Source: Chondrosia reniformis
Taxonomy: Eukaryota; Porifera; Demospongiae; Chondrillida; Chondrillidae
Direction: 5' to 3'
Length of the DNA stretch: 64,000 nt
Assembly (NCBI GenBank): GCA_947172415.1
Contig: OX359190.1
Span: forward strand, 5,580,001 to 5,644,000
Numbering within the stretch: position 1 is the stretch's first letter; the number at the start of each line of letters is the position of its first letter. A model generated the notes under the pieces. The model searched no databases. It had not been told where the DNA came from and saw only the letters and a list, made by a program, of their open reading frames with translations. Shown piece by piece: positions 1,491 to 25,660 of this stretch. Both the position numbers and the translations under genes were made by a program.

Positions 1491-1494
1491 CTAT

Positions 1495-2650: not shown

Positions 2651-2654
2651 CCAG

Positions 2655-3236
2655 TTGCAGAATGACACGGGATGGGTTTATCTGAGAAGGAAGCAAGCCT
2701 GTCTTCAAATCCCAGTACAGACAGTAGAAAGTCATGGTGATGACTATTACTACAGTTTGCTGCTACTATACATCCCTTGGAGGAAGGAACCTGAGGATCT
2801 GTTGAAAGGTCACTCTTCTGCAATGCAGGCTTTCATTGTACGAGAAGGAGAAATGGTTGTTTTTAATGCTCACAATCATGCCTTTGCAGATGAAGTGCAG
2901 AAGGCTGTTGTGCAATTACAAGCCTTGGAAGACGATGCCTACCAAGATGTTGTTGCCCCAATGGCACAGCAGGCTCAAAGGGAGGATGCTGCACAACCCT
3001 TTATTGAGGCTGAAGGAGGGTTGATGAACCCAGAGCATTTCATGGACCCAGCATGCCTTGATGATGACAATCTGAGTGCAATAGATGAAGAACATATGCT
3101 CTTAAATGACAATGATGACGACATTGGAGCTATCAGTAGACACTCCCTTATGGATAGGGCATTTAGGCAACTCATTGCAAGTTTGAATACAAAGCAGCGT
3201 ATTCCATTTGACATTGTTGTGCACCACACTCGTTAG
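2655..3236 (+). pseudogene. RepHel linker region between Rep and PIF1 helicase
   Basis: Helitron proteins have a long connector between Rep and helicase. This one carries the recognisable block DYYYSLLLLYIPWRKEPEDL (residues 30-49), which matches the family pattern YY.SLLLLY.PWR.E..LL. An acidic stretch rich in D and E follows (about residues 135-172). An in-frame TAG (3234-3236) separates it from the helicase in the same frame. The same TAG is in the right copy, so it is an old lesion, or much less likely a readthrough codon. Confidence 0.8.
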
Positions 3237-4196
3237 TTGCACAAACACAGAATGAAAATACGCCACAAACCTCCAGAACCATTTCATCTGTTTGTGACAG
3301 GTGGAGCAGGCACTGGAAAATCACATGTAATTAGGGCTATTAAAGAGCATATGGAACGTTCTATGTCAGGGAGTCAAGAGATGCATGCCTGTATGTTGAT
3401 GGCACCCACCGGGGTTGCAGCCTTCAACATTGGAGGCCTCACAATCCATAGAGCATTGCGGCTTCAGGTGGAGCATGGCAGAACTGCTCATCAATTGCAG
3501 CTGAATGCCCTAGCCCTGCATGACTTGAGGAATCTGTGGCAAGGAGTGCACACCATCATCATTGATGAAATCAGTATGGTGTCTTACCAGATACTGAAGT
3601 CAGTTCACAGTCGACTGTGTGAGATTTATGGCAATGATGAGATCTTTTGTGGCTTGAATGTCATTGCAGTGGGTGACTTGTACCAGCTATCTCCAGTGAA
3701 CCGTAGTTTTATATTCAGTCAGAAACCTGGACGCTCATTGGGGCAACTGGCTTCACACCTTTGGAGGGATTTCTTCAAGGTGATTGAACTGGAAGTGAAC
3801 ATGCGTCAGCAGAATGATGTTTCATTCTCAGAGATACTTAATCGGATCAGGACGGGAGTGCACACCAATGAAGATGTGAAAGTTCTTCAAACACGTTTGG
3901 TTTCGGGTGGGACTGTGGATTTGCTGGCTTCCCCATTTGATACAGCTCTGACATTGTATCCTCGTAGAGTAGATGTTGATGGGCACAATGAAATGCAGAT
4001 AAAAAATCTAGCAAAGAGCAGTCAAATCTATAGTATTGATGCCGAGCATGCAATATTAGAGAGTCGAGGGCAAATTTATGCCAATATTAAATACAATGAG
4101 GTTCGAGAATGTCTCATTCCACAAGATGATAAAGACTGCGCTGCACTGCCCCGTATACTGAGGCTAGCAGTTGGTGCTAGATTAATGTTGCGATGA
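3237..4196 (+). pseudogene. PIF1-family helicase, N-terminal half
   Basis: SF1B 5'-3' DNA helicase core that unwinds the displaced strand. The Walker A motif is GGAGTGKS (residues 22-29), motif Ia is MAPTGVAAFNIGG, Walker B is IIIDEISMV with DEIS at 110-113, and motif III is GDLYQLSPV at 146-154. A PIF1 signature LEVNMRQQND follows. All catalytic residues of these motifs are intact. The frame ends at TGA 4194-4196, where the family expects an amino acid within LMLR.NIN...GLVNGARG; the right copy has the same stop. Confidence 0.92.
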
Positions 4197-4217
4197 AACA
4201 TTAACTGTGGTGATGGC

Positions 4218-5109
4218 TTGGTGAATGGTGCCAGAGGAACAATTGTAGGCTTCAAGTGGTCAAGAAATGCAAGGCATCAGAGTATGCCTGGTGAATTACC
4301 CACAGAGGTATATGTGAGATTCTTAGATACCAATGTGGGGAAATTGTCAAAGGTACCATGTTGTCTCGGGGGAACAGCATGTTGTACCAATTCAGCTTAT
4401 TCCTGCACGTTTCTATGGAAAGGAAGGTACACTCCTGCAGAGAACACAGATTCCCTTGATTTTGTGCTGGGCAGCAACTATTCACGAGGTGCAAGGATTG
4501 TCTCTTGATGCAGCAGTCATGGATTTAGGGAAGGATGTAGTTGAACCTGGAATGGCCTATGTAGCTCTTAGTCGTGTGTGCACACTGAATGGAGTGGGCC
4601 TCCTGAACTTTCAGCCAAAGAAGATGACAGCAAACAAGAGAGTCCATGAGGAAATGGCAAGGCTACGACAAGAATCTGCTCATAGTGGTGAGGAATCAGA
4701 AAAGGAGGAGCTAATATCAGGTCATTTTGTCCAGAATTGTAGTCAAAATGAGGAGAAATCAAGTGCTGCAGTAAAGGGTAGTAGTGCTTTGGTACACAAT
4801 GACAAGTGTATGTCACAATCTTATGTTAAGATTGCGGATAAAGGGACACATGGCAAGGAGTATACATCGGAACCATTGGTGGTTGGCAGTCAGTCTGTGC
4901 ATTCAGACATCCCAATTACTTATGTTGACACACTTGTGTTGTCACTGAAAACAACACTTAAAGCTTTAGTGACTAGTAACACTTTGAATAGTGAATCAAT
5001 AGTGAGGTGGTCAAAGTGTCATCACAGTGAATTACAGACTATTTGTAAAGTGGTCAGTCGTCCTTCCGGGCAACTTTCAGTAATATGCATCATCAAGTGG
5101 ATGTTGTAG
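4218..5109 (+). pseudogene. PIF1-family helicase, C-terminal half, frameshifted
   Basis: The helicase continues with GLVNGARGTIVGF in the frame of 4218, then shifts near 4340 to the frame running 4333-5109. The second frame carries RTQIPLILCWAATIHEVQGLSLDAAV (residues 38-62) and YVALSRV (76-82), which are PIF1 motifs V and VI. From about residue 100 the sequence becomes low-similarity and Ser/Glu-rich, a spacer of about 150 residues before the OTU-like domain. At about 5067 one C is missing compared with the right copy (CC instead of CCC). That break separates helicase from OTU here, whereas the two are fused in the right copy. Confidence 0.88.
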
Positions 5110-5805: not shown

Positions 5806-6801
5806 ATGGCAAGTGAATGGTAGAATACGGTGACTGCAAAGGCTGACGTGGTGATGTCAAGTTATATAGAATTTAGTATTTGAGGCTACTTTCAACTCAT
5901 GGAAGTATTTTGAAGTTTACGTATAATGTATTTTCTAAGTGTTTGTAAATTGTCTACATCAATAATGTATTTTGACAATAAGTCACACTCTACAGCAATA
6001 CAGGGTGTTAGTATGAGTTCATATGTATTTTGTAATTTTGAATGTTTTCTCTGATGTGTGGTTGGCAGTGTCACAGTTATTGTCCTCTTTTGTGCTTTAC
6101 TAAGAAGCAAGGATGCATGGAGCAGGCAATTTAAAAGCTTTCTGGTAAGTCAACAGTTTCAATTTCTTTAATTGTATACCTCATTTGGCTTTCACTTACA
6201 AAATTCATTGCAAATTTCTAATTGTTCTCACATCACTGCAGGTCACTCCTTACCTTCACAACTAGAGAGAAAAAAATATTATAGAAGAAGATACATGTTT
6301 TGAATCACTATAGAACGCATAACTTAGACCTGCATCGGGGAAACATGAGGAGTGAGAGAGCATTTCATTAGCAAGTCTAACAAGTAAGTGTACATATAAT
6401 ATGATTGCTAATTAACTCATGCACACTACTGCGAAGTGCTGTTAATATGTAAGTGTACTCTTTTCCTTCAGGTATCCACATATTCCTTCCAACAAATCAA
6501 TGCATTTCTGAGAAGCACTGGATGAACATGTTTGGAACCAATGAAAGAAACCATACCCATGCCATATCTGTCATATCTCATTTATTGCACTATTAACTTA
6601 CAAGTCATTATAGTGCATACTTCAGTGTTCCTGCAAAACACATGCTTGATAGTACCAAGAGCTAATACTCTTCCCTCACACTCTTTTTTCTGTTTCTAAT
6701 GTACTTATTAATTGATAATTGACCATAGAAGTGTTTAATAGAGTATACCAGTAGGATGAATATGATTGGTAATAATAAGGCCACAGCGACCGAAGGGAGC
6801 C
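5806..6801 (+). other. Non-coding 3' region of the left Helitron copy
   Basis: AT-rich sequence conserved with 14929-15896 of the right copy in inverted orientation, so it belongs to the element. It contains no convincing gene. A 72-codon frame on the minus strand (5892-6110) has a twin in the right copy only because the arms are alike; it has no recognisable motif. The segment ends with a block (6780-6800) reading GGCTCCCTTCGGTCGCTGTGG on the minus strand, which borders the hairpin unit. Confidence 0.6.
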
Positions 6802-7080
6802 AAGTAGTTTGAGTTCATTCGGGGGGCGGTAGCCCCACGAGTTTTTTAACTCGAACTACTTGTTTATGCAACTAGCACATATAACTACAAAACACTACTA
6901 GTTTATGACTAGTTCATATAACTAATACATACAATTAGTACATATAACGAGTACATACACTAGTACATACAATGAGTACATCCAACCAGAAAAAACAAGT
7001 ATTTCGAGTTTAAAAACTTGTGGGGCTGTGCCCCCCAAATTAACTCAAACTACTCTGCCGCTTCGTTGGGATTTAATATA
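6781..7080. repeat. Palindromic unit: two inverted GC-rich hairpins around satellite-like DNA
   Basis: Hairpin H1 (6802-6861) has arms AAGTAGTTTGAGTT and AACTCGAACTACTT and a G-run/C-run core (GGGGGGCGGTAGCCCC). Hairpin H2 (6996-7055) is the same sequence in inverted orientation. Between them lie about 135 bp of degenerate satellite monomers (for example ACTAATACATACAATTAG). Flanks CGAAGGGAGCC and, inverted, CGAAGCGGCAG are also partly matched, so the whole 300 bp is a large imperfect palindrome. Helitron 3' ends typically contain a hairpin, and Helentron-type elements carry inverted repeats and internal tandem repeats, so this may be the element's terminus. Confidence 0.65.
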
Positions 7081-8394
7081 TATATTTGTAAAAGGAACGA
7101 TTGAGGACGCTTAAATGTCCTGAACTTTATAAATAACAATGGAAAAGCTTCGTAAACTAAAGCTTCCTGAACGCCACCATTTGTAAAAACGATGTATTAA
7201 CGTATAAAATAAGTGTTATAATACTTGTGCATAAAATGTATTATATATATATATATATATATATATACAGTGCAAGTTACAATATACTAAGGTAATCTAA
7301 TATAAATAATTAAAGAATTCATATGGCTCCAAGAAAGAACCTAAAAACAAAATGGGCATATCATCATTAAGTTTAGGGTATAAAACTCGTTTAAAATTAA
7401 GCGATTTTTTATTTAGGCCTCCGTTTGTTAGAAAACGGAGGACAAAGTTTGCATATAAAAGGCCATAGGACTATAGAAAGCCTATGGGAAATTTATATGC
7501 TAACCATGTGTTATATTGATAAAAATTTTCAGTTTGTCAGATAACTGTGAAATCAACGTATATCATGGTACATGTGTATAAGAAACGTCTGGTGAAGTTT
7601 TGCTTAATTAAATGAGCAAAATAATCAAGATATAATGAAGAATTCAAAGTTACGATTGCACAAGCTGGTGATGTTTTGTGATGTTTTTCTATTGCGTCAC
7701 CAACACCTTCGTATGTCGCTCCGTACACACATTTTGTGAATCATGTGACGTTGCGTAAACGTCATCGACTCGTTGCTAAAAAAGATCATCTTTTGAGAAT
7801 GGCTAGGACAAGTCGACGCTCTCCTACGAGAAGGAGCTACCGAATAAGCGAGTTGTAGCGAAGGTTAGATAAAACGTATTTGTATACGTTCATGCTAAGT
7901 TTAAGCCAAAAGTGTTGCTATATATATTGATGTAAAGAAATAAAAGAAATTCGTTTAGACGACCGTATGAAAACTGTGGTACTTTAAGCTCCGTCATCTC
8001 TGCTTATGTTTTCTATTACTTATCCATGTGTGTACGTGTGCAGGAGTGTAATTGAATACGTAGGGGTATATAATTGTCCATGTGTAGGAATAAGGAGTGC
8101 TATATTAAGCATGTTTAAATACAATCAAGTACTACACAATGCAAGTTACAAATTTATACACGGATGCAAGTGACTCCCAAGATAATCACACTGAGGTATA
8201 TAATATAATACGGATGCAAATGACTCCCAAAATAATCACAATCAGGTATATTAAACGCTACAAGACTTTAGCCACACTGAAAAACTGCTGCATACAGAGT
8301 AGTAGTCTCTACAGATCATATAAGGTTAAACGCATGGCCTTCCATGACCTTGTACATACAACTACTACATATCACTAATATATACCTATCACTA
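7056..8394. other. AT-rich spacer without a supported gene
   Basis: Not shared with the right arm. It holds a (TA)n tract at 7242-7267, the nested hairpins listed separately, a hairpin-forming CTCCTACGAGAAGGAG at about 7821-7836, and a 50-bp tandem duplication starting at 8161 and 8211 (unit begins CGGATGCAA.TGACTCCCAA). A short frame at 8139-8378 covers that duplication and has no recognisable domain. Satellite monomers begin at about 8395. Confidence 0.55.
7417..7500. repeat. Two adjacent perfect hairpins, the second nested
   Basis: First hairpin: CCTCCGTTT and AAACGGAGG with a short loop (about 7417-7442). Second: outer arms GCATATAAA (7451-7459) and TTTATATGC (7492-7500), inner arms CCATAGG (7463-7469) and CCTATGG (7481-7487). 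This is a strong cruciform candidate in the spacer between the Helitron arms. No gene function is apparent; it could be a remnant of a small palindromic element. Confidence 0.6.
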
Positions 8395-11300
8395 AAGATT
8401 ACAACTAGTACATACAACCAGTACATAAAACTAGTACATACAACTAGTACTAATAACTAGTGCATACAGCTAGTACATATATCTAGTACATGCAACTAGT
8501 ACATATTACTAGTACGTATAGCTAGTACATTTAACTAGTAAATGCAACTAGCACATGCAACTAGTACATATAACTAGTACATACCACTAGTACATATAAC
8601 TATTACTTACAACTAGTGCATTCAACTAGTACATACAACTGGTATTTATAATTAGTACATAATACTAGTACATACAACTAGTACATATATAAGTTCATAA
8701 AACTAGTACATAGAAGTCGTACATACAACTTGTACATAGAACTAGGAAGGATAACTAGAACATACACATATAACTTGTACACATAAATAGTACATAAAAC
8801 TAATGCATACAACTAGTACATCCTACTGGTACAAACAACTAGTAAATACAACTAGTACATACAACTAGTAAAAACAACTAGTACATACAACTAGTACATT
8901 CAACTTTTACATGTAACTAGTACATTTACTTGTTCATACAACTAATACATACAACTCTTACATAAAACTTGTGCATAGAACTAGTAAGGATAACTGGAAC
9001 GTACACATATAACTTGTACGCATGAATAGTATATACAACTAATAAGTACAACTAGTACATGTATCTTCATCTAAAGCTCTCTTTACGTTTAGTTCCCCTA
9101 TAGCCTCTTTTTACAGAATAGGCATATAGCATGTAGGAAAATGGTATCTTCGATTTTTCATGCAACTGGTACATACAACTAGTATACACAACTGGTACAT
9201 ACAACTATTACAAACAACTAGTACATACAACTAGTTCATACAACTAGCACTACAAGTAGTACATACTACTAGTACATAAAACTAGCACATACAACTAGTA
9301 AATATAACTAGTTCTATTACATAGAACTAGTACATAAAACAAGTACATACAACTAGTACAAAGAACTAGTAACTAGGTCCAACAACTAGAATATACAACT
9401 AATACATACAAGTACATGCAATTAGTACATACAACTAGTAATGAGTACATACAACTAGTACATATACCTAATACATACAATTAGTACCTACAACTAATTA
9501 ATAAACCAATACATACAACTAATACATAAAACTAGAACATAAAACTAGAACATAAAACTAGTATATACAATCAATATGTAAAACTTGTACCTACAACAAG
9601 TAAATATAACTACTACTAGTACACACAAAAAACTAGTACATACAATTAGTAGCGAATACATACAACTAGTAACTACACCTAGCACATACAACTAGTACCT
9701 ACAACTAGTTCATCCAAGTAGTACATACAACTAGTACATACAGCTAGAACATAAAACTACTTCCTACAACTGGTAAATATATCTTGTATTAGTACATACA
9801 ACTAGTAAATAAAGCTAGTAACTAGTTCCTACATCTAGTACAAACAACAATTACATACAATTAGTACTTCCAATTAATAAAATGAACTAGTACTAGAATG
9901 TACAACTAGTACATACAAAAAGTACATACAACTAGTACTTTCAACTAATAAATGTAACTAGTACTAGTACTTACAACTAGTACATAAAACTAGCAGATAC
10001 AACTTGTACATATTACTAGAACATATAACTAGAACATTCACATAAAACTAATACCTACAAGTTGTTCCTACTACTAGAAAAGATAACTAGTACTAGTATG
10101 TGCAACTAGTACATACAACTAGTAACGAATACATACAACTAGTACATAAGCTTAGTACATACAATTAGTAACGAGTACATACAACTAGTGCATATACCTA
10201 ATACATACAATAGTATCTACCACTAATTAATAAACCAGTACATACAACTAATACATAAAACTAGAACATAAAACTAGTATATACAACTAATATATAAAAC
10301 TTGCACCTACAACAAGCAAATATAACTACAACTAGTACATACAAAAATCTATATAGTACATTCAACTTGTAGCGAATACATACAACTAGTAAATACACCT
10401 AGTACATACAACTAGTACCTACAACTAGTTCATGCAAGTAGTACATACAACTAGTACATACAGCTAGAACATAAAACTAGTTCCTACAACTGGTAAATAT
10501 AACTTCTATTAGTATGTACAACTAGTATTTCCAACTAATAAACATATCTATGACTAGAACGTTAAACTAGTACATCAAACAAGTACCTACAACTAGTACT
10601 TCCAACTAATAAACATAACTAGTACTAGAACGTACAACTAGTATATACAACTAGTAACGTGTACATATAACTAGAACATACACATATGACTAGTACATAT
10701 AAACAGTACATTCTACCAGTACATAAAAGTAAAACAAACAACTAGTACATACAACTTGTACATACAACTAGTACATATAACTAGAACATTCACATATAAC
10801 TAGTACATATAAATAGTACATACAACTAGTACATATAAATAGTACATAAACCAAGTACATACAACTTATACATACAACCAGTACATACAACTAGTCCACA
10901 CCACGAGTACATACAATTAGTACAAATACCTAGTGCATACAGTTAGTACATATATCTAGTACATGCAACTAGTACATATTACTAGTACGTATAGCTAGTC
11001 CATTCAATTAGTAAATACAAATAGTACATACAACTAGTACATACCACTAGTACATATTACTAGTTCTTACAACTAGTACATACAACTAATAAATATAACT
11101 AGTAATCATAACTAGTGATTACCACTAGTACATAATACTAGTACACACAACTAGGGCATATAATAAGTCCATACAACTATTACATACAAATCTAACATAA
11201 ACCTTGTACATAGCACTAGTAAGGATAACTAGAACATACACATATAATATAAAGTACATACAACTAGTATATATAAATAGTACCTAGAACTAGTACCTAT

Positions 11301-14300
11301 AACTAATTCATACAACCAGTAGGTACAACTAGTACATACAACTAGTACATACAGCTAGTACATTTAACTAGAACGTAGACATACAACTGGTGCACACAAC
11401 TACTACATACAACCAGTACATACAACTCGAATACAAACCTAGCATATACAAGTAGTACCAATAACTAGTGATTACAACTAATACATATAACAAATTCATA
11501 AAACTAATATATATAAGTAGTTCATACAACTAGTACATACACCTACTACATACGGCTAGTACATAGAACTAATATATAGAACTAGTTCATACAACTAGTA
11601 CATACAACTATTACATAAAACTAGTACATACAACCAGTACATACAACCAGTACATACAACTAGTACATACAATTAGAACATAACTAGTATATGCAACTAG
11701 AACATATAACTAGTAACTATAACTAGTGATTACCATTAGTACATTCAACTAGTACATACAACTAGTACATATAACTAGATCATACAACTAGTACAAAAAC
11801 TTGTACAAACAACTCGTATATACAACTCATACATACAACTTGTACATAGACCTACTAAGGATAACTAGAATATGCGTATATAACTTGTACCTATAACTAT
11901 TGATTACCACTAGAACCTACAACTAGTACATACGACTAGTACGTACAAACAGTACATACAAACAGTACATAAAACTAGTCCATACAACTAGTACATAACT
12001 AATATATGCAACTAGTACATATAACTAGTACATACAACCAGTACACATTACTCGTATATACAACTAGAATATACAAATAGTATGTACAACTAGTACCTAC
12101 AACTGGTACCTATATCTAGTACCTATAACTAGTGATTGCCACTAGTACATACAACTAGTACATATAACTAGTTCATAAAACTAGTACAGACAAGTCGTAC
12201 ATACAACTTGTACATACAACTAATAAGGATAACTAGAACATACACATATAACTTGTACATACAAATAGTACAAACAACTAATACATACAACTAGTACATG
12301 CAACTGGTACATACAACTAGTGCAGACAACTGGTACATACAACTAGTACATACATCTAGTACGCACAAATTGTACATACACCTAGTATATTTAACTAGTA
12401 CTTACACATATAACTAGTTCATATAGATACTACATACAACGAATACATAACTAGTACATACAACTAGTACATACAAACAGTACATTCAACCAATACGTAC
12501 AACTAGTACAAACAACTTGTACATAAACCCAGTACACATAAATAGTACATACAACCAGTACATACAACTACTACATAAAACTAGTAGATACAGCTAGTAC
12601 ATACAACTAGTACATACAACTAGTACATACAACCAATACACACAACTAGTAGATACAACTAGAATATACAACTAGTACGTACAACTAGTACATACAACTC
12701 ATAGATACAACTTGTACAAAAGAACTAGTAAGGATAACTAGAACATACACATATAACTTGTACATATAAATAGTACATACAACTAGTAAATACAACTAGT
12801 ACATGCAACTGGTACAAACAACTAGAACATACATCTGGTACATACAAATTTTACATACACCTAGTATATATAACTAGAGCATACACATATAACTAATACA
12901 TATAAATACTACATACCACTAATACATAACTAATACATACAACTTGTACACACAAGTAGAACATATAACTAGAACATACAAATATAACTAGTACATAAAC
13001 TAGTACATACAAACAGAACATTCAACCTATACGTATAACTAGTACATCCAACTAGTGCAAACAGTATATACTATTTTTACATACAACTAGAATATACAAA
13101 TAGTATGTACAAATGGTATCTACAACTAGTACCTCTAACTAGTACCTATAACTAGTGATTTCCACTAGTACATACAACTACTACATAGAACTAGTTCATA
13201 CAACTATTACAAGCAACTAGTACATACAACTATTCCAGACAACTGGTAAAAACAACTGGTACATACATCTAGTACGCACAAATTGTACACACACCTAGTA
13301 CATATAACTAGTACATGCACATATAACTAGTACATATAGATACAACATACAACGAATGCATAACTAGTTCTTTCAACTTGTACATACAAGTGGAACATAT
13401 AATTAGAATATACATCTATAACTGGTACATACAACTAGTACATACAAACTGTACATTCAACCAATACGTACAACTAGTACCTACAACTTGTACATAAAAC
13501 CAGTACATACAACCAGTACATACAACTAGTACATAAAATTAGTAGATACAACTAGTACATACAACTAGTACATACAATTTGTACAAAGAACTAGTTAGGA
13601 TAACTAGTACATACACATATAATTTGTACATATAAATAGTACACACAACTATTAAATACAACTAGTACATGCAACTTGTACAAACAACTAGAACACACAT
13701 CTAGTACATAGAAATTGTACATACACCTAGTACATACAGCTAGTACATAGAACTAGAACCTATAACTAGTGATTACCATTATTAAACACAACTAATAAGG
13801 ATACTCCGAACATACACATATAACTTGTACATATGAATAGTACATACAACTAGTACATACAACTGGTACATACAACTAGCACATATCAATAGTACCTATA
13901 AGTAGTGATTATAGCTAGTACATGCAACTAGTACATATAACTAGTAGATACAACTAGTACATACAACTAATACATACAACTTGTACAAAGAACTAGTTAG
14001 GATAACTAGTACATACACATATAATTTGTACATATAAATAGTACACACAACTATTAAATACAACTAGGACATGCAACTTGTACAAACAACTAGAACACAC
14101 ATCTAGTACATAGAAATTGTACATACACCTAGTACATACAGCTAGTACATAGAACTAGAACCTATAACTAGTGATTACCATTATTAAACACAACTAATAA
14201 GGATACTCCGAACATACACATATAACTTGTACATATGAATAGTACATACAACTAGTACATACAACTGGTACATACAACTAGTACATATCAATAGTAACTA

Positions 14301-14675
14301 TAAGTAGTGATTATAGCTAGTACATGAAACTAGTACATATAACTAGTACATGCAACTAATACATATTACTAGTACATACTAATAGTACATTCAACCAGTA
14401 CAGAAAACTAGTAAATACAACTAGTACATATAACTAGTACAAACACTAGCCAATAGAACTAGTACATATGTCTACAACATACAACCAGTGCAAACAAATA
14501 GTACATATAACTGGTTCACTATAGCTAGTGTTTACAACTATTACAAAAAACTAGTACGTACACCAAGTACATATAACCAGTACCTACAACTACTACATAC
14601 AACTATTACATAAAACTTGTACATTCAAGAAGTAGAGATAACTAGAACATTCACATATAACTGGTTCATATAAAC
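8395..14675 (-). repeat. 13-bp satellite array, monomer ACTAGTACATACA
   Basis: About 6.3 kb of degenerate tandem monomers of 13 bp (ACTAGTACATACA on the plus strand). ACTAGT is itself palindromic. Variant monomers recur in blocks, for example AACTAGTGATTACCACTAGT and AAGGATAACTAGAACATAC. Larger duplications overlay the 13-bp period: about 720 bp (9435-9770 resembles 10165-10500) and 402 bp (13580-13800 resembles 13982-14200). No gene is present. Orientation is opposite to the satellite right of 26 kb. Confidence 0.93.
9063..9158. other. Non-satellite insert in the left array
   Basis: About 95 bp unlike the satellite interrupts the monomers (starts CTTCATCTAAAGCTCTC, ends ATGGTATCTTCGATTTT). 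The word GTATCTTC occurs near both ends (about 9061 and 9144) as a possible flanking direct repeat. No coding potential or known family recognised. Confidence 0.45.
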
Positions 14676-14928
14676 AAGTAGTTCGAGTTAATTCGGGGGG
14701 GCACCCCCACGAGTTTTTAAACTCGAAATACTGTTTTTTTCTAGTTGGATGTACTCATTGTATGTGCTAGTGTATGTGCTCGTTATATGTACTAATTGTA
14801 TGTATTAGTTATATGAACTAGTTATAAACTAGTAGTGTTTTGTAGTTATATGTGCTAGTTGCATAAACAAGTAGTTTGAGTTAAAAAACTCGTGGGACTA
14901 CCGCCCCCCGAATGAACTCAAACTACTT
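14676..14928. repeat. Right-arm copy of the hairpin pair
   Basis: Hairpin H3 (14676-14732) and hairpin H4 (14869-14928) are the inverted counterparts of H2 and H1 and enclose the same satellite-like stretch, here reading TGTATGTACTAATTG-like monomers. H4 contains a nested GAGTTAAAAAACTC mini-hairpin and a core of GGGACTACCGCCCCCC. Similarity to the left arm starts exactly at H3, so this unit marks the inner end of the right Helitron copy. Confidence 0.65.
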
Positions 14929-15896
14929 GGCTCCCTTCGGTCGCTGTGGCCTTATTATTACCAATCATATTCATCCTACTGGTATACTCTATTAAACACT
15001 TCTATGGTCAATTATCAATTAATAAGTACATTAGAAACAGAAAAAAGAGTGTGAGGGAAGAGTATTAGCTCTTGGTACTATCAAGCATGTGTTTTGCAGG
15101 AACACTGAAGTATGCACTATAATGACTTGTAAGTTAATAGTGCAATAAATGAGATATGACAGATATGGTATGGGTATGGTTTCTTTCTTTGGTTCCAAAC
15201 ATGTTCATCCAGTGCTTCTCAGAAATGCATTGATTTGTTGGAAGGAATATGTGGATACCTGAAGGAAAAGAGTACACTTACATATTAACAGCACTTCGCA
15301 GTAGTGTGCATGAGTTAATTAGCAATCATATTATATGTACACTTACTTGTTAGACTTGCTAATGAAATGCTTGCTCACTCCTCATGTTTCCCCGATGCAG
15401 GTCTAAGTTATGCGTTCTATAGTGATTCAAAACATGTATCTTCTTCTATAATATTTTTTTCTCTCTAGTTGTGAAGGTAAGGAGTGACCTGCAGTGATGT
15501 GAGAACAATTAGAAATTTGCAATGAATTTTGTAAGTGAAAGCCAAATGAGGTATACAATTAAAGAAATTGAAACTGTTGACTTACCAGAAAGCTTTTAAA
15601 TTGCCTGCTCCATGCATCCTTGCTTCTTAGTAAAGCACAAAAGAGGACAATAACTGTGACATTGCCAACCACACATCAGAGAAAACATTCAAAATTACAA
15701 AATACATATGAACTCATACTAACACCCTGTATTGCTGTAGAGTGTGACTTATTGTCAAAATACATTATTGATGTAGAAAATTTACAAACACTTAGAAAAT
15801 ATATTATACGTAAACTTCAAAATACTTCCATGAGTTGAAAGTAGCCTCAAATACTAAATTCTATATAACTTGACATCACCACGTCAGCCTTTGCAG
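14929..15896 (-). other. Non-coding 3' region of the right Helitron copy
   Basis: Inverted counterpart of 5809-6801, with only scattered differences. The frame at 15620-15838 is the twin of the minus-strand frame at 5892-6110; I see no motif in it and do not call it a gene. Confidence 0.6.
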
Positions 15897-17022
15897 TCAC
15901 CGTATTCTACCATTCACTTGCAGAAGTATCCTAGCAGTTGGCTGAATGACTTTAAGCATATGTTGTTGATGCATAATGAGGCTATAAGCGGTCAACAACC
16001 TCAAGTGGCACATGTACTGCTCTGTTCCACAAAGGGCCAAAGATAGCATATGATACCTACAATTTCCACCTCCTTTAGTGCCAACTGGCATGTACTGTGA
16101 CGTAAAAGCTGGAAAGACTTCATCTTTTACTACAACATCCACTTGATGATGCATATTACTGAAAGTTGCCCGGGAAGGACGATTGACCACTTTATGAATA
16201 GTCTGTAATTCACTGTGATGACACTTTGACCACCTCACTATTGACTCACTATTCAAAGTGTTACTAGTCACTAAAGCTTTAAGTGTTGTTTTCAGTGACA
16301 ACACAAGTGTGTCAACATAAGTAATTGGGATGTCTGAATGCACAGACTGACTGCCAACCACCAATGGTTCCGATGTATACTCCTTGCCATGTGTCCCTTT
16401 ATCCGCAATCTTAACATAAGATTGTGACATACACTTGTCATTGTGTACCAAAGCACTACTACCCTTTACTGCAGCACTTGATTTCTCCTCATTTTGACTA
16501 CAATTCTGGACAAAATGACCTGATATTAGCTCCTCCTTTTCTGATTCCTCACCACTATGAGCAGATTCTTGTCGTAGCCTTGCCATTTCCTCATGGACTC
16601 TCTTGTTTGCTGTCATCTTCTTTGGCTGAAAGTTCAGGAGGCCCACTCCATTCAGTGTGCACACACGACTAAGAGCTACATAGGCCATTCCAGGTTCAAC
16701 TACATCCTTCCCTAAATCCATGACTGCTGCATCAAGAGACAATCCTTGCACCTCGTGAATAGTTGCTGCCCAGCACAGAATCAAGGGAATCTGTGTTCTC
16801 TGCAGGAGTGTACCTTCCTTTCCATAGAAACGTGCAGGAATAAGCTGAATTGGTACAACATGCTGTTCCCCCGAGACAACATGGTACCTTTGACAATTTC
16901 CCCACATTGGTATCTAAGAATCTCACATATACCTCTGTGGGTAATTCACCAGGCATACTCTGATGCCTTGCATTTCTTGACCACTTGAAGCCTACAATTG
17001 TTCCTCTGGCACCATTCACCAA
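15897..17022 (-). pseudogene. PIF1 helicase C-terminal half fused to a truncated OTU-like domain
   Basis: Counterpart of left 4218-5756. After the shared frameshift near 16900 the frame 15897-16907 runs without interruption from PIF1 motifs V and VI (TIHEVQGLSLD, YVALSRV), through the Ser/Glu-rich spacer, into the OTU-like motif GGGNCRYHMLSLALCGTEQ. This shows the protease domain was originally the C-terminal part of the RepHel polypeptide. The domain is cut 46 residues after the Cys by the 491-bp deletion; translation then runs into 3' non-coding sequence and stops, so the catalytic His is missing. Confidence 0.85.
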
Positions 17023-17043
17023 GCCATCACCACAGTTAATGTT

Positions 17044-18003
17044 TCATCGCAACATTAATCTAGCACCAACTGCTAGCCTCAGTATACGGGGCAGTGCAGC
17101 GCAGTCTTTATCATCTTGTGGAATGAGACATTCTCGAACCTCATTGTATTTAATATTGGCATAAATTTGCCCTCGACTCTCTAATATTGCATGCTCGGCA
17201 TCAATACTATAGATTTGACTGCTCTTTGCTAGATTTTTTATCTGCATTTCATTGTGCCCATCAACATCTACTCTACGAGGATACAATGTCAGAGCTGTAT
17301 CAAATGGGGAAGCCAGCAAATCCACAGTCCCACCCGAAACCAAACGTGTTTGAAGAACTTTCACATCTTCATTGGTGTGCACTCCCGTCCTGATCCGATT
17401 AAGTATCTCTGAGAATGAAACATCATTCTGCTGACGCATGTTCACTTCCAGTTCAATCACCTTGAAGAAATCCCTCCAAAGGTGTGAAGCCAGTTGCCCC
17501 AATGAGCGTCCAGGTTTCTGACTGAATATAAAACTACGGTTCACTGGAGATAGCTGGTACAAGTCACCCACTGCAATGACATTCAAGCCACAAAAGATCT
17601 CATCATTGCCATAAATCTCACACAGTCGACTGTGAACTGACTTCAGTATCTGGTAAGACACCATACTGATTTCATCAATGATGATGGTGTGCACTCCTTG
17701 CCACAGATTCCTCAAGTCATGCAGGGCTAGGGCATTCAGCTGCAATTGATGAGCAGTTCTGCCATGCTCCACCTGAAGCCGCAATGCTCTATGGATTGTG
17801 AGGCCTCCAATGTTGAAGGCTGCAACCCCGGTGGGTGCCATCAACATACAGGCATGCATCTCTTGACTCCCTGACATAGAACGTTCCATATGCTCTTTAA
17901 TAGCCCTAATTACATGTGATTTTCCAGTGCCTGCTCCACCTGTCACAAACAGATGAAATGGTTCTGGAGGTTTGTGGCGTATTTTCATTCTGTGTTTGTG
18001 CAA
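17044..18003 (-). pseudogene. PIF1-family helicase, N-terminal half (right copy)
   Basis: Same 319-residue segment as left 3237-4196, with Walker A GGAGTGKS, Walker B IIIDEISMV and GDLYQLSPV intact and no amino-acid difference noticed. It is bounded by the same TGA downstream and the same in-frame TAG upstream. Perfect protein identity here, against several differences elsewhere, points to recent duplication or gene conversion between the arms rather than independent selection. Confidence 0.92.
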
Positions 18004-18585
18004 CTAACGAGTGTGGTGCACAACAATGTCAAATGGAATACGCTGCTTTGTATTCAAACTTGCAATGAGTTGCCTAAATGCCCTATCCATAAGGGAGTGT
18101 CTACTGATAGCTCCAATGTCGTCATCATTGTCATTTAAGAGCATATGTTCTTCATCTATTGCACTCAGATTGTCATCATCAAGGCATGCTGGGTCCATGA
18201 AATGCTCTGGGTTCATCAACCCTCCTTCAGCCTCAATAAAGGGTTGTGCAGCATCCTCCCTTTGAGCCTGCTGTGCCATTGGGGCAACAACATCTTGGTA
18301 GGCATCGTCTTCCAAGGCTTGTAATTGCACAACAGCCTTCTGCACTTCATCTGCAAAGGCATGATTGTGAGCATTAAAAACAACCATTTCTCCTTCTCGT
18401 ACAATGAAAGCCTGCATTGCAGAAGAGTGACCTTTCAACAGATCCTCAGGTTCCTTCCTCCAAGGGATGTATAGTAGCAGCAAACTGTAGTAATAGTCAT
18501 CACCATGACTTTCTACTGTCTGTACTGGGATTTGAAGACAGGCTTGCTTCCTTCTCAGATGAACCCATCCCGTGTCATTCTGCAA
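18004..18585 (-). pseudogene. RepHel linker region (right copy)
   Basis: Counterpart of left 2655-3236 with the block DYYYSLLLLYIPWRKEPEDL; one residue differs (GWVH versus GWVY near the start). Ends at the shared in-frame TAG. Confidence 0.8.
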
Positions 18586-18589
18586 CTGG

Positions 18590-19243
18590 TTACGAGACTG
18601 TGCTGGTCCATTCCAACTTTCCCAACACCCGTGTATCTACATCATACCACACTGCAAAGTGAGCCAAGGTCATGCTTGCAAATTCTGGTGTGTCAGGTCT
18701 AAAGGCATATCTATCAAAGATACCAGGGGCAAAACTATCAGAGGAATCATCCTCCAATTCAAGCAATTCAGACCTACTCTTGAGTAACCGCGTTCTCTTT
18801 TCTGGTCTGGTAGTGTTAAGGAATACAACTTTTCTTGAATTTTCTTTCAGAGGCAAGTGACACAATCGATATGCTGCCTCCTGGGCACTCAACTCATGAT
18901 GGGTCAGCATTGTGTTGCCAATCTTTGACAGACGCTTTCTTGTTGAAGCCTGAGGAGGCAAGCTTCCCGATGCATCTCGGATAGCTTTCCTGACCTCTTC
19001 ACTTTCTGATTTACACATGTAGGAACACACATATGCAGCTGTGCCATATACTGATCCAATCAATTGTATATCCATATTAGCTTTCCATGCCTTCAGAAGG
19101 TGTGTATAGTATGGATTGCAGTTTTCTTCCCCTGCTGATCTCTTCAAGACATAGAACCTGGACTTGTTTCCAGGATCATCATGGCTTTTCAGCCGTGTAT
19201 CTTCTGACAGAGGTTGAGGAAAATCAAATCGGCAGTCTGCCAC
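18590..19243 (-). pseudogene. Helitron Rep nuclease, Y2 segment (right copy)
   Basis: Counterpart of left 1997-2650. CRFDFPQPLSEDTRL and the paired-tyrosine motif YVCSYMCK are intact. One visible substitution (DASGSL versus DASESL). Same frame breaks at both ends as the left copy. Confidence 0.87.
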
Positions 19244-19745
19244 ATTTTTCCCCTTGTGTTGCTTTCCTGCAAGTTGATGTATGATGGTGCTGCTGCACTC
19301 TCAACACCAATGAATGAAGTTCTTCATCTTTGCAACCTTGTGTTGGAATATTCACAGAAATGTACCTATCAATGTACTGTGGAGCAATCTGCCTTCCAGC
19401 TGTAGTATCTAAGTTTGGAGCATCCCTTATCCACCACATGGAATGGATATGTGGAGATCCCCTCAACTGGAATTCAATTCTCCAAAAGTAGTCAACTACC
19501 TCACCAATAGGTTGCCCAGATCCTTTAATCACTTCCCTGAGGAAGCACTGAAAGCGATGTGCAAAATGCCTAGCTGTAACCACTGGATTTGTCCTCATCA
19601 GTTCTCTCCTCTCACTGGCTGATAAATTAGCTGCCTGTTCCTCTGACAGATTCTGACCCATACTCCTGCTTAGCACTATCATCAAGTCCACCCAATTATT
19701 ATCGTCAGCACTCAGTGGGACAAAGAATGTGGGAGGACCTAGCAA
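19224..19745 (-). pseudogene. Helitron Rep nuclease, HUH segment (right copy)
   Basis: Counterpart of left 1495-2016. The HUH motif RGSPHIHSMWW is intact. It overlaps the next segment by 20 bases because of the shared frame break before the CRFDFP motif. Confidence 0.87.
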
Positions 19746-20133
19746 ATAGCTGGATCTTTACTGAGTTCCAATAAGCCTTTGTGCCACGAATATCTCTCAT
19801 GAAGCTATAACAATTTTCACGCAAGTGAGGGTTATTTTCCAGGCATCCTAGCAGCAAACCAGCTGTGAGTAGCTCCTTCTCATTGGTTTCCTTGTTAGAC
19901 TTCTCACAGTGGCCTATTCTGAATGATCGCATCCTCATAGCAATGGAAATGCTGCTCTGCAACTTCAGGGCTTCTACAATGTTACAGGCCCAAAAGATAT
20001 TAGCAGGATGACATGCCCATCTTGAGTCAGCACTAAGCATTCTTCTTTGCAAATATTCTAGAGGTGTAACTTTGACTTCTCTGATGGTGCCAAAACCATT
20101 TTCACCATTGGGGTAAAGGGTCGGAAAAGCCAA
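19705..20133 (-). pseudogene. Helitron Rep domain, N-terminal segment (right copy)
   Basis: Counterpart of left 1107-1490 but 15 codons longer: the codon that is TAG in the left copy is CAG here, so the frame continues through QLFAR before meeting the shared frameshift. Other differences include RRMLSADS versus RRMLNADS and ACNIVEAL versus ACKIVEAL. Confidence 0.8.
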
Positions 20134-20587
20134 TACTTCTAAACATTTTGATTCTCAAATATACTTAGTGGTGTGGTTGTTACTCTGTAACTTATGTATC
20201 TGTTGTTCTATTGGTATACTACCTTGTATCAAGTTAACAGCCTCTACAACAGGCTGGAGAGCATCCAACCTAACAATTTATGTTTCATCCATTTCTAAAA
20301 TATCTTCATTCACATTTTCACCGTCAGTGACCTTTCTTCTTTATGGTTGAACATGTCTTCTGACATCTTAGTGATGGTGATGTCACCATACAAGGGGTTA
20401 TGTTGCTCTAACCATTTCAGAGCTTGCATCACATTGGAGTATCGACAGGTATGGTAAATTGTATCAGGGACAGAGCCATTTGGTTTACTTTCAATAGAGT
20501 CTGGCTGCTGAATGTAAAGAATATCTTCACCACTGGGTAAACGAGGGAGCTCTGAAATGACACAGTCAACATTAGAGGGAAAGTTGA
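20134..20587 (-). pseudogene. Decayed region between DUF6570-type domain and Rep (right copy)
   Basis: Continuation of the DUF6570-type region. The text SELPRLPSGEDILYIQQPDS and MQALKWLEQHNPLYGDITI is readable but out of frame with the segment upstream because of a one-base deletion at about 20594 (GGACGG versus GGCCAGG in the left copy). Shared stops between about 20335 and 20155 match those at 927-1095 of the left copy. Confidence 0.6.
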
Positions 20588-21313
20588 TTACCGTCCTCTA
20601 ACAGCCCTTTTTCCACCCCTTGGCAAATTGGTCATTTTCATGAAAACAGTAGCCTTTGAAATCAAACGCTGCTCTAATGTGTTTAGTCCAATGAACACTG
20701 AAGGGACCTCTGGTACTTTCATTTTATTAATCTGTGATCCTGCTGGAATTTTCTTTCTTTCTATAGCACTCTTGCACTTGTTACACAACCAAACACTTTC
20801 TATACTTTCTTGAACTGATTCATTCACCACAGCAAGTAGATCATTTGCCACATCGCAGCTGTACAGGGCACCCAACTGGTCAGAGCACGACCTTTCACAT
20901 GAAAAACACTTATGGGTCGGCCCCTTAAGAATTGCTTTTTCAAATTTATGTAAGTTATTTTTCAACTTTAAAGCTTGTTTTGATGGTATTGAAATCTCAA
21001 GTCTTGGTACTTGCACAGCAGATGCAGTAACAACACCAGACTCAATTACACTTCCACCCACTTCCATGTCCACCTCTTCAGATTTTTGGCTGATAAGATT
21101 TTCCTTACCAGTATCATCCATGACTGAATCATCACTTTGGGTTGATTCTCTTTGAACTTCCTTCAAACTGTCACTCTCCAACCCATCAGTGGATTCATAA
21201 ATTGAACTAATGCGGGTCACATTTACCTTGGTATTTGAAACAATGCTAGTACATGGCACACTACTGGTTATTTCTCCTTCTGAGTTACGTTTTTGCCTCC
21301 TCCATGCTTGCAT
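20588..21313 (-). pseudogene. DUF6570-type N-terminal region (right copy)
   Basis: Complete through the point where the left copy is frameshifted: the A run is AAAAA here, so the frame passes from an acidic Ser-rich stretch (QRESTQSDDSVMDDTGKEN) into the cysteine clusters HKCFSCERSC and CNKC. It ends prematurely at RAVRGR because of the private one-base deletion. Upstream it reads on, without a stop, to about 21340 as a basic stretch (RLRMQAWRRQKRN) that continues the helical repeats of the 2A-bearing frame; the ATG at 21313 is therefore probably internal. Confidence 0.8.
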
Positions 21314-21351
21314 TCTTAATCTTGCTTGCTCTTTTTCTCTCTCCAGTCTTA

Positions 21352-21897
21352 GAGTATTTTTTGTTTAGATTCATTAATCAATCTTGTTTTCTTAAATTTG
21401 TTACTGCTGCTCAGTCTTGACTCCTGTTTTTTAGTCGATTCAGACTGCAACCTCTTCCTCTGATTTTCAGAGAGGGTACCAAGTCTTTCAGCACGATCTT
21501 CATTGCTTTCTGACTGCAACCTCTTACTCTGATTTTCAGAGAGGGTGGTAAGTCTTGCAGCACCATCTGCACTGCCTTCTGACTGCAGCCTCTTACTCTG
21601 ATTTTCAGAGAGGGTGGCAAGTCTTGCAGCACGATCTTCATTGCTTCCTGACTGCAACCTCTTACTCTGATTTTCAGAGAGGGTGGCAAGTCTTGTTGCA
21701 CGATTTTCCTTGGTTTCTGAGTACAGCCATTTCCTGTTATTTTCAGTGAGTGCAGCAAGCCTCACAGCACCTTGCTTCTCAGTCTCATATTGCAGCCGCA
21801 GTCTCTGGTTCTCTGACATTTTTAATAATCTTATACGGTGCTCTTCAACTGTTTCAGCATCTAGCCGCTTTCTCTGACATGCTGACAGCATGGCCAG
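21352..21897 (-). repeat. 69-bp coding tandem repeats
   Basis: About seven tandem copies of a 69-bp unit encoding 23 residues (core LSENQSKRLQSES..DRAAR). The three central units are nearly identical at the DNA level, the outer ones diverged, as expected for repeat expansion by unequal exchange. The first and last copies blend into single-copy protein sequence. Confidence 0.8.
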
Positions 21898-22017
21898 TGT
21901 AGAACATTTCTTTATTGCACTGTCCATGTATTCTTGACTGCCAATTCCAGTTTGGTCCATAACTGGATTAACAGCTGATGTAGGCATTGTCAATTCATCA
22001 TGTATCTCATTCTGACG

Positions 22018-22041
22018 TGGGCCTGGGTTCAGTTCAACATC
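22018..22041 (-). other. 2A-like ribosome-skipping motif DVELNPGP
   Basis: The eight codons read DVELNPGP and are preceded by LLLLGR. In 2A peptides the ribosome fails to join the final Gly and Pro and continues, releasing the upstream peptide. The upstream part here is basic then hydrophobic, which in some invertebrate 2A proteins doubles as a signal sequence. Motif match is exact for D, V, E, N, P, G, P; activity is inferred. Confidence 0.75.
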
Positions 22042-22403
22042 TCTACCCAGCAATAGCAGTATACTTAATGAACAAGCTAAGCGAAAGTTGCCCTTACAGT
22101 AGCGCCTTCTGCGTAGCAGGTGATGCAATGTACACCTGAACCATTGTCTTCGTTGATGGATGCACATATTCTTGTGCAATACAAAAACCAAATGATAATG
22201 CTTCATTGGAATGTCATGGTACTCCAAGGAATTAGTTGTAAAATGACCATGGCAAGGCTCATATGTTACTGACATAAGGATGGTGAAACCATCAAGGTTC
22301 ATTTCATTCAGGTCAGTGTACATTTTTATTTCATGGATCATACTGTAAGTAGAAGTACATATTTCAGATTGCCAAACACAAGACAATCCATTCCAGATAC
22401 AGC

Positions 22404-22618
22404 GTGAGTGACCCCAGAATGAGGGTGCAGGACCCCGGCAGCCTGGTCCAGGACCCCAGTCACAGGGTGAGTAACCCCAGCTACAGGGTTGGCAACCCTA
22501 ACCACAGGGTAATTGACCCCAGCCACAGGGTGTGCAACCCCAGCCACAGGGTAATTGACCCCAGCCACAGGGTGAGCAACCCCAGCCACAGGATAATCAA
22601 CCACAGCCACAGGGTGAT
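22404..22618. repeat. 21-bp minisatellite
   Basis: Roughly ten tandem units of 21 bp (CCACAGGGTAATTGACCCCAG and variants). Because 21 is divisible by three, frames stay open on both strands: PVAGVNY repeats on minus (22338-22610) and HRVxDPS repeats on plus (22404-22652). Neither has start or homology support, so I call it a repeat, not a gene. It abuts the 5' region of the right Helitron copy and may be part of it. Confidence 0.8.
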
Positions 22619-24786
22619 TTACTTTGATTCCAGAAACAGAGCCAAGAAATGACAGACTGAGTGTAATTATGTTTGTAGATAGTGCCTATCATGACCGTCG
22701 GTTCATGTGAGATGTATGCAAATGGAGTGGTGTTAGAGTGCATACATACTATATATTGTTCATGTTTCAGACATCTATAGCCTGGAATAAAGAATAGAAA
22801 GGCAGCTAATATATATACAAAAGAACACCCTGTCACACAGCATAGAACAACTTAAAGATAAAGATACAATTGTTTGCATGTGAAAAAATTATTGAGATTT
22901 TCGAAAATTTTGGCCTCAAAACACATTAGTCCCTTTAATATGCATTCGATCTTGTCTATCAAGATTAGCGCCACCCCTTGAGCAGCTAGCTGCCCCACTC
23001 ACCACCTCTAGACAACTGCCCCACCCACAGTCTTCTAGAATCACATGAAGGCACAATTCTGAACTAATAATAACCATTATATAGTAGACAGAAGTGATGA
23101 TTTTGACTTACTCAAAAAAGGCCACTTCAACATTATTGCCGCTGTCGCTGATTCTTCCACAAACACGTTCAGTAACAACGCTTGAAGAAGTAATTCGTTG
23201 CAACGTGCTTGAAGTTAGTGTTGTTGATTTTTATAAATACAGTAATTAAATAGTGCAATAGAAATTCGTGCGCCCAGTTATTGCCTCGCATAATTATCAA
23301 TAAAACTCACCCATACAATATTGTCACTTTATCGAATCAATGATGGCTTAGTTGGCTTGTGTTCTGTGCAGCCTTTCTTACTGTTTTTTCCATGTTGACT
23401 GTTCTGGGATGATTCCTTCTGCATAGGGTAAAAAGGATGTAGTGTTAATGTTGCATGCAATTTATACATAAAATTAACTTGTGAGCTAGCCAGTTCTGGC
23501 TGCATTGTGCATACCATAAATGCAGTTTCATAAACAACTAAATTCAGTTTTTCACTCATTTATAAACCTTGGAAAGCTATATATATATATATATTGAAAT
23601 AAAGAATGTCGTTAATTACATTCGAATTGGTAAATATGGGAGGTGTCCGTACGTTTTCCAAAGGCAATTAAGTATTGCATAATAAGACTAGGTTTGTATA
23701 CAACCCTTAAATGTATTGGAAACAACATGATGTGAGCAAGGGTTGTTTTGCTTCCAAATGTTTGTCTTAGAAGTGTAAAGAGGGCCGTAGTCAGACACAC
23801 TTTATCGTTTGTTTTTGACAGTGTATATAATCTGGAACCACATTTTGTGTTACTATAATTTAAAAAGCATATATTTCTCATATTATTAATCAAGTGAGAG
23901 ATACATTGTAACGATGAGTTCAGAGAGTAACTCTACTTTAACAGATTTATATCAGTAGACTCCATGTTCTAAGATAAAGACACTCAAAGGACAATTTACC
24001 CATCTGAAGCGTTTTTCTTTACTGTACTAAAAGGATAGCCTATTTTACTTCTCTTCTATTAACTAGTGGAGTCAGTTTAGTACATGACAATGTTATTAGG
24101 GATATGCTGTATTCATTGAAGAACATAGCGGTGCTACTACTACAGATACATAAATGATTTACGTGATTCTTTGTATATAATGGCAAGTTCCTGTCTTTTC
24201 TCCCTTCTATGCCTATATTACCTAGCAAGGTAACCTTTTGATCGACAGCTTGAGAAACTTGGCATCATTGCTGACGCTATATAGCTTATTCTATACAACC
24301 GGAAGCGTTACCACCTCAATCGCTCTATATCATATGTTATCTATAGGAATTGGACTTGAATCTGCTCCCCTTATCGTGCCATGACCCTAATACTTGTGCT
24401 AATCGCCGAACGAATTGGTAACGTTCAAAGTGATATACGAGAATCATATGAAATCCTTTATTGTATCCCTCTTCAAAGGCTTTTCGACGTATCAAGTCAT
24501 TTATAAAAGCGTTTTAACTCATCATACGTCCCTACCCAAAAACGAAATTTCAACAAACATGGTGACAGCCACGCGTAGGCGGATACCAATCCATAGTCGT
24601 TGTTCTTTTCCTAAGTAGAAGTCGGATTAAAGTATTAATTTAAGATGAATCTTAGCAGTTTAAGAAAGTAGGAGGAAAAGGAAGGGAATCCGAATGAATA
24701 AATACAACTCTTTCAAATGGATAGATGTGCAGCTGAAACTTGGTGTCAGCATTCACAAACCGACAGATAAGTGTACATTTCTGTAG

Positions 24787-24875
24787 GTTCAGATGATGGT
24801 ACTGTAAGGTTGTGGGAGGTGGACACTGGTTATTGTTCATCCCTAAATCATATCCAAAGAGTTTCACACAAAGGG
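24787..24875 (+). pseudogene. Isolated WD40-repeat exon
   Basis: The plus strand reads GSDDGTVRLWEVDTG, an archetypal WD40 repeat (the GSDDGT turn, then a V-R-L-W-E strand). It is preceded by an acceptor-like ACATTTCTGTAG and followed by a donor-like AAAGGG/GTAAGAT, giving an 89-bp exon; the first codon is split after its first base. No neighbouring WD40 exon was found within several kb on either side, so this is either one exon of a gene with long introns or a fragment copied by a transposon. The repeat resembles those in ribosome-biogenesis and splicing WD40 proteins, but one repeat cannot identify the parent. Confidence 0.5.
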
Positions 24876-25660
24876 GTAAGATTTTCTTGTCATTCACGTG
24901 GCTAAAAAACTTTGGTACCAGCCGTCCTTGGCATAGCAAGGGAACATCACCAAAGGAATTATGCCTATATTAAACCATAGATTATCTATACTACGTAACG
25001 CTATATAGTATACATAATCTATGATTAAACCTCACTGTCTCATCCTTACAGTACCATCATCTTTATCACTATCATTGTAATATTGGCCCTTGTTTATTGA
25101 TAACATAATTTGAAAAAGTATATTAAACGTTATAGTAAAGGTATTACTACGCATAGATATAATTTGTCGTAAACAAAGACAAAATGATAACGTACGGCGC
25201 TTGACATAATTATGGATATCATGTAATATGGCTAAAAATCAAAAGAAGGCCTTCAGAGCGCAAAAGACTAGTGTATTCATTTGGCAGGCGCCGTGAGTGT
25301 CTTTGCCGTACGCTTCTTATTACTGATTAGCATGATTATCAATAGATGATACAAACATTACAGTGTTTATTATAAACAGTTTATAAACAAATACTGTCAC
25401 GTTTGTAAACACGGAAATCTAATTTAAGTTAGAAGTAAACTTACAGCCTAAATGTACTGTAAGACTTTAGTAGAGGGAAGTCATGAGCTGTAAGACTATA
25501 AGACTAACAGAAAAGTGTAGGTACCGTGAAATCCCTATGATGTATTTCAAATAAAATTTTGATATGGCTTCCATCTTCGAATACTTGTAAACAAAATGCC
25601 CAACGCTTAGGCCAACTTCGGCATACTATTTTAAGCTTTAATTAGCTTTCTCTTCACCAG

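Follow-up and report, generated by a model that had tools for sequence, protein, structure and literature searches.

The window, a stretch of 64,000 nucleotides (C2:5580001-5644000), was found to contain on its minus strand the codons GAT GTT GAA CTG AAC CCA GGC CCA (22041-22018), translated as DVELNPGP. The 2A-like motif of the initial annotation was confirmed at exactly this position, and its reading as such was right in kind, the interpretation built on it being supported in part. The peptide directly upstream was SILLLLGR and the longer upstream peptide ended in ...RLACSLSILLLLGR (in another rendering, ...RRRRYCKGNFRLACSLSILLLLGR); the basic and then hydrophobic character attributed to it was seen in the window copy as well as in its relatives. 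The motif was contained in a frame of 382 amino acids (22497-21349), in which STPR repeats were the only Pfam match (E <= 0.01) and which stopped before the DUF6570 domain. The first in-frame ATG of the proximal leader was codon -100. The window copy of the Helitron was found to be split over several frames, which carried the 2A and STPR repeats, a partial DUF6570, a partial Rep and a PIF1 domain, respectively, and it is a broken pseudogene. The features are collected in Table 1.

Table 1. Features of the window Helitron copy and its 2A region (window coordinates)
Feature	Position	Strand	Basis
2A core DVELNPGP	22018..22041	-	Sequence, translation, exact match to the genome-wide pattern
Predicted skip point, between the Gly codon and the last Pro codon	22023-22021 / 22020-22018	-	Expected position
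AGA (Arg) codon preceding Asp	22042..22044	-	GGA (Gly) in other families and in 23/28 family-1 copies
Leucine-rich SLSILLLLGR adjoining the core	22042..22071	-	Compared with the LLLLSG-like viral class
Proximal leader, ~100 codons, RRRR (basic) then leucine-rich	22042..22341	-	Purifying selection in relatives
Distal stretch of the frame, of uncertain coding status	22342..22497	-	Pairwise constraint tests
Stop-to-stop frame, 382 aa: leader, 2A and STPR repeats	21349..22497	-	Frame scan, Pfam
Best STPR repeat stretch (PF21107)	21622..21837	-	Pfam, residues 221-292, converted to window coordinates
Partial DUF6570 (PF20209), other frame	20594..20758	-	Pfam, residues 203-257 of frame 20591-21364, converted
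Partial Rep (Helitron_like_N, profile 109-190)	19437..19742	-	Rep match C2:5599437-5599742, converted
PIF1-like helicase domain	17368..17955	-	Pfam, residues 17-212 of frame 17047-18003, converted
3' terminal palindrome, window Helitron copy	14866..14931	-	Homology of dispersed copies stops just past the palindrome
Same 3' palindrome, second inverted Helitron copy	6799..6864	+	2A of the second copy 872 bases before the window start

The genome (117,379,552 bases in 15 contigs) was searched with GAYRTNGARNNNAAYCCNGGNCC, a codon pattern for D(V/I/M)ExNPGP, and with the reversed pattern as control. The codon pattern was found 126 times (69 + 57) in the whole genome and the reversed control once (0 + 1), and all 126 sites were recovered by two split searches (91 + 35). 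With 117 listed DUF6570 matches and 72 Rep matches as the reference, a Helitron DUF6570 or Rep match was found within 6 kb after the 2A, on the same strand, at 73 of the 126 sites, of which one, C5:5976460 (L040), contained a PHD-like sequence after the 2A and may be no Helitron. In 300 trials of random placement (2.4-5.5 Mb, same contig), such sites numbered 1.4 on average and never more than 6; as family copies are not independent, this comparison tests association and not origin. A chance occurrence of the motif was ruled out by the pattern counts and by the random placement.

The N-terminal 334 amino acids of the window copy gave 139 matches in the genome, from which 20 loci, none longer than 9.9 kb, were taken. 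Among the 133 Rep matches listed, four frames of at least 2,300 amino acids were found (2,523, 2,312, 2,510 and 2,555), and the 2A was in frame in all four (L009, L010, L011 and L012). Its Asp followed the last upstream stop by 264, 263, 290 and 290 codons, respectively, so that the N-terminal placement proposed initially holds only loosely. All four frames contained DUF6570, Helitron_like_N and PIF1 domains, and two of them (L009 and L010) contained STPR repeats. An OTU domain, also part of the initial annotation, was found in L009, L011 and L012 but not in L010, and the last of the window frames scanned (15900-16913) gave no match to it. The HUH motif of the Rep was PHVH or PHYH, and the HUH Rep and the PIF1-type helicase were contained in one protein in the four intact relatives and as fragments in the window copy. 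Pfam detected neither endonuclease nor reverse transcriptase in the four intact frames, and no endonuclease with reverse transcriptase was found after the 2A in the window frames tested. In the intact relatives the 2A was placed in frame between two translated parts, the upstream part being constrained over ~100 codons. The long main frame of L013, L014 and L015 was cut off from the 2A frame by a stop or a shift, which in L013 was a single in-frame stop, and a family-3 copy (C2:4156686) contained an open frame of 707 amino acids spanning the 2A.

The search for the motif among related Helitrons, suggested with the initial annotation, revealed it in five families, which were numbered for this report. 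Family 1 (window copy; L010) contained GG/DVELNPGP in its Gly form, family 2 (L009) AG/DVELNPGP, family 3 (L013) SG/DVEVNPGP, family 4 GG/DIESNPGP (L011, L012, L027 and L028) or GG/DVESNPGP (L022), and family 5 (L037) HG/DMEQNPGP. The assignment of L037 to the Helitrons was based on DUF6570 and a Rep match 2.8 kb past the 2A. The StopGo/2A core D(V/I)ExNPGP (expanded form, (D/G/C/N)(V/I)ExNPGP) was found in the window copy and in families 1-4, with DMEQNPGP of family 5 lying outside it. An alignment of six representatives, with 23-46% identity to the first row over the region, contained the invariant columns R36, L52-L54, G57, D58, E60, N62, P63, G64 and P65. Relatives outside the genome were sought by Rep-alignment scans of viral and of bacterial and archaeal contigs and none was confirmed by tblastn, a negative result that weighs little because these sets contain no animal genomes. 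Three family-3 2A sites (C5:4587408, 4599373 and 4611338, the first in L013) were exactly 11,965 bases apart and represent a recent tandem triplication of ~12 kb.

Of the 133 Rep matches, 61 were dropped and 72 kept, namely those starting no later than profile position 20. An exact 2A was found upstream on the same strand at 0.55-3.4 kb, mostly 1.9-2.8 kb, in 46 of the 72 and was absent from 26. It accompanied 44 of the 55 Rep matches with DUF6570 just upstream versus 2 of the 17 without (Fisher p 6e-7), and the Helitron lineage without DUF6570 probably lacks the 2A. Among the 26 matches without an exact 2A, 7 were preceded by a region related to that of the 2A but degenerate, 1 retained just the sequence that follows the 2A, and in 18 nothing was recognised; six of the 11 that had DUF6570 belonged to the 19 of the last two kinds. 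Intact relatives devoid of the motif had been named initially as a refuting case. The 26 matches do lack an exact 2A, but no intact Helitron was seen among them, the longest frame there being 1,770 amino acids.

Selection was estimated by Nei-Gojobori counts (own script). In the pairs L010-L009 and L011-L027, dN/dS of the 2A (20 codons) was 0.11 and 0.15, that of codons -100 to -9 was 0.35 in both pairs, and that further upstream was 0.77-0.89. Pooled over the two pairs, differences per sites were 16/33 (synonymous) and 8/87 (nonsynonymous) in the 2A (p 7e-6), 55/102 and 122/414 in codons -100 to -12 (p 7e-6), and 54/196 and 184/782 beyond codon -100 (p 0.26). The distant pair L010-L011 gave dN/dS of 0.37 (distal) and 0.31 (mid) at a synonymous distance of 1.3-2.4, which is near saturation. 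A poorer fit to constraint was found for L011-L028 (0.73 distal, 0.58 mid, 0.50 proximal) and for L027-L028 (0.65, 0.92 and 0.69, respectively), and among young copies of the same family the ratio of several segments was close to 1 or higher. Purifying selection clearly acts on the 2A and the preceding ~100 codons but is unsettled further upstream, and the 2A motif is kept by selection in these Helitrons.

The in-frame ATGs upstream were found at different codons in each family and none was conserved; a possible 3' splice site directly ahead of codon -100 of family 1, inspected by eye, was not clearly conserved. Between codon -263 and about codon -134, families 1 and 2 (L010 and L009) were 89-99% identical at the DNA level, followed by 50-59% identity to codon -12, as if their 5' region, which holds a CGWG minisatellite, had been shared or exchanged. 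In L005, L009-L012 and L023 the open frame contained CGWG heptad repeats, with a hydrophobic stretch close to its beginning; this part may be coding or a 5' minisatellite. A long secreted leader, with a signal peptide and Cys/Trp-rich CGWG repeats read from the open frame, was considered. The upstream ratios of the pair L010-L011, taken near synonymous saturation, and the distal and mid ratios of L011-L028 would favour it; the want of a conserved ATG argues against it, as does the lack of nonsynonymous constraint beyond codon -100 in L010-L009 and L011-L027. The 5' end of the Helitron was not found in the comparison of dispersed copies. L004, L005, L007 and L008 shared sequence past window position 25475, where the window copy diverges, and a stretch of ~1.8 kb in its 5' region (23418-25195), absent from the same four loci, is probably an insertion.

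The residue preceding Asp was encoded by GGA (Gly) in 23 of 28 family-1 copies and by AGA (Arg) in 5 (matches to a 26-base pattern), the window copy belonging to the Arg subfamily. The other Helitron families contained GGA before GAT or GAC, with Gly at p11 and Asp at p12. Viral 2As that have Asp at p12 strongly favour Gly at p11, and almost every change tested among the characteristic residues upstream brought activity close to zero (PMC12846837). Since Arg replaces the Gly favoured before Asp, skipping by the window copy is doubtful, and this copy may skip poorly. That skipping has been lost or weakened in the window subfamily by the Gly to Arg change is rather probable, given the Arg codon in 5 copies, the broken frames and the viral preference; it is a narrower claim and compatible with skipping in the Gly forms. 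Against it stand the presence of the Arg form in 5 copies and the range of tested changes, among which Arg at p11 does not figure in the accessible text of PMC12846837. In a tree of 15 copies the Arg copy L008 clustered with two Gly copies, and the change was therefore not a simple single event, which also speaks against this claim. With its broken frames and its Arg, the window copy alone is no fair basis for judging the 2A.

Homology between dispersed copies was found to end at ACTTGTT just after the 3' palindrome, which is followed by TT. Both window copies as well as L016 and L020 contained a CTAG ~12 bases further, which was absent in L009, L014, L017, L018, L019 and L023. The ends of Helitron1 (3' CTRR after a hairpin, 5' TC) were not found at the homology boundary of the dispersed copies. 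Of the features of Helitron2 (asymmetric terminal inverted repeats, hairpin ends), the 3' palindrome was present, and the endonuclease fused to Rep/helicase that marks Helentrons gave no Pfam match in the four intact frames. The 3' end appears nearer to Helitron2/Helentron ends (PMC5148889, PMC4067079). The union of Rep and PIF1 in a single protein, the OTU domain of three of the four intact frames and the 3' palindrome with TT also resemble that group, whereas its endonuclease domain was not found in the intact frames, and no 2A leader is described in the accessible text of the two papers.

The same genome contains 2As in other elements, and CR1/L2-like retrotransposons with a 2A were found to be common in it. 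The 2A/StopGo sequences of APE-type (CR1/L2-like) non-LTR retrotransposons were reportedly treated by Odon et al. in 2013. Of 15 other 2A loci, all but L040 and L043 were scanned, and one or more of the chosen frames matched reverse transcriptase or endonuclease at 11 (at L032 below the curated cut-off), DUF6570 at L037 and, again below cut-off, a PHD finger at L035. The CR1/L2-like elements resemble the Helitrons in that an N-terminal D(V/I)ExNPGP follows a leucine-rich stretch in a mobile element; their frames, however, continue to PHD, endonuclease and reverse transcriptase, and those of the Helitrons to DUF6570, Rep and PIF1. At L040 (C5:5972700-5977100) a 2A was followed by PHD-like sequence, as in retrotransposons, and by two DUF6570 matches ~2 kb on; this locus is either a chimera or a set of nested elements.

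StopGo is described as widespread among RNA viruses but rare in the genes of cells (PMC12846837), non-LTR retrotransposons of other animals and sea-urchin NLR genes being the known exceptions named (PMC4981915). The Helitron motif resembles the viral LLLLSG-like class in its D(V/I)ExNPGP core, in the leucine-rich sequence upstream and, in the Gly forms, in the Gly before Asp. Leucine-rich upstream motifs 2 and 6 end in (A/S/C)G, and motif 6 is one of four motifs tested and active in lysate with viral examples (PMC12846837). LLLLAG of family 2 and LLLLSG of family 3 fit motifs 2 and 6, and LLLLGG of families 1 and 4 is close to them; the viral class comes from RNA viruses, and the Helitron sequences depart from it in the GG end of families 1 and 4, the M at p13 of family 5 and the Arg at p11 of the window subfamily. 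In sea-urchin NLR proteins, N-terminal 2As act as recoding element and signal sequence, unskipped protein entering the secretory route and skipped protein staying cytoplasmic (PMC4981915). They share with the Helitron motif a place near the N-terminus behind a hydrophobic stretch, and a dual-targeting model has been given for them, but NLRs are immune proteins and their 2A stretch is 26 amino acids at the very N-terminus (PMC4981915), as against the constrained Helitron leader of ~100.

A motif present and in frame, recurrent in five families, under purifying selection and like a viral class active in vitro is best explained as a StopGo/2A of DUF6570-type Helitrons, at which the ribosome in all likelihood releases a leader and then makes a separate Rep-helicase. 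Intact elements would be read as one long frame of leader, 2A, repeat region, DUF6570, HUH Rep nuclease, PIF1 helicase and usually OTU. The leader, whose clearly constrained part is about 100 amino acids, basic and then leucine-rich, would be freed when the ribosome, as is most likely, omits the Gly-Pro bond at the 2A, and the Rep-helicase would then be made as a separate protein beginning with Pro. We infer skipping and a function of the leader from these sequence features, and skipping is highly probable in the Gly forms. Several points count against this explanation: the GG ends of families 1 and 4 in place of (A/S/C)G, the M at p13 of family 5, outside (V/I), the Arg at p11 of the window copy, the leader's unconserved start codon and the 26 of 72 Rep matches without an exact 2A. 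As the leader ends in a leucine-rich stretch, membranes or secretion may be the destination of unskipped protein, and the skipped product would be free to reach the nucleus, comparable to the sea-urchin 2As. By this analogy the leader may have a localisation of its own, as proposed initially, and dual targeting of the Helitron protein is a tentative possibility. It is rather doubtful that DUF6570-type Helitrons use StopGo as a standing expression step in which a membrane-directed leader is released and the unskipped share keeps transposase from the nucleus, a translational brake on transposition.

Three other accounts of the motif were weighed. The window copy by itself, with 2A and Rep in separate frames, could suggest a 2A belonging to another element nested beside the Helitron; this was rejected on the four intact frames, which unite the 2A with DUF6570, Rep and PIF1 and bear out its initial attribution to the Helitron. 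The regular position of the 2A upstream of 46 of the 72 Rep matches also speaks against nesting, which is extremely improbable. A 2A acquired along with part of a CR1/L2-like retrotransposon and carried as a passenger without a role in the Helitron would fit the abundance of such elements in this genome and the endonuclease that Helentrons are reported to have gained from a retrotransposon (PMC5148889). The selection on the 2A within Helitrons and its recurrence in five families argue against a passenger, and by eye the Helitron leader resembles retrotransposon leaders in the 2A only. Capture is possible as the origin of the Helitron 2A; the absence of a role is the disfavoured part, and the passenger account as a whole is very unlikely. 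The constrained leader with its leucine-rich end could alternatively serve as a hydrophobic signal or membrane anchor only, the NPGP core being non-skipping. A signal alone would need no G-D-x-E-x-N-P-G-P core, and it is there that the invariant columns are concentrated and that nonsynonymous change falls below that of the preceding leader; this alternative is improbable.

No description of a 2A or StopGo in Helitrons was found in the literature searched, which left out relevant surveys, and the terms Helitron and 2A peptide co-occurred in PMC10288884 and PMC6647327, papers unrelated by title. What appears to be new is a 2A in a DNA-transposon lineage, that of CR1/L2-like retrotransposons being known. 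If true, the conservation of a 2A in rolling-circle DNA transposons would extend StopGo to mobile elements that replicate quite differently and would suggest that a wider range of mobile elements profits from the splitting of leader and enzyme. Whether 2As are exchanged between Helitrons and CR1/L2-like elements of the same genome, and whether the destination of the transposase is controlled by skipping, would become testable questions.

Window positions 1097-5070 and 16170-20143 contained two inverted Helitron copies, whose arms of 3,974 bases were reported as 100% complementary, the neighbouring arms being at 98-99%, which is either a recent inverted duplication or gene conversion. Large arrays with a 13-base period (about 8330-15000 and 26149-63000) flanked and separated the Helitron copies, and repeats similar to these arrays adjoined the Helitron 3' ends.
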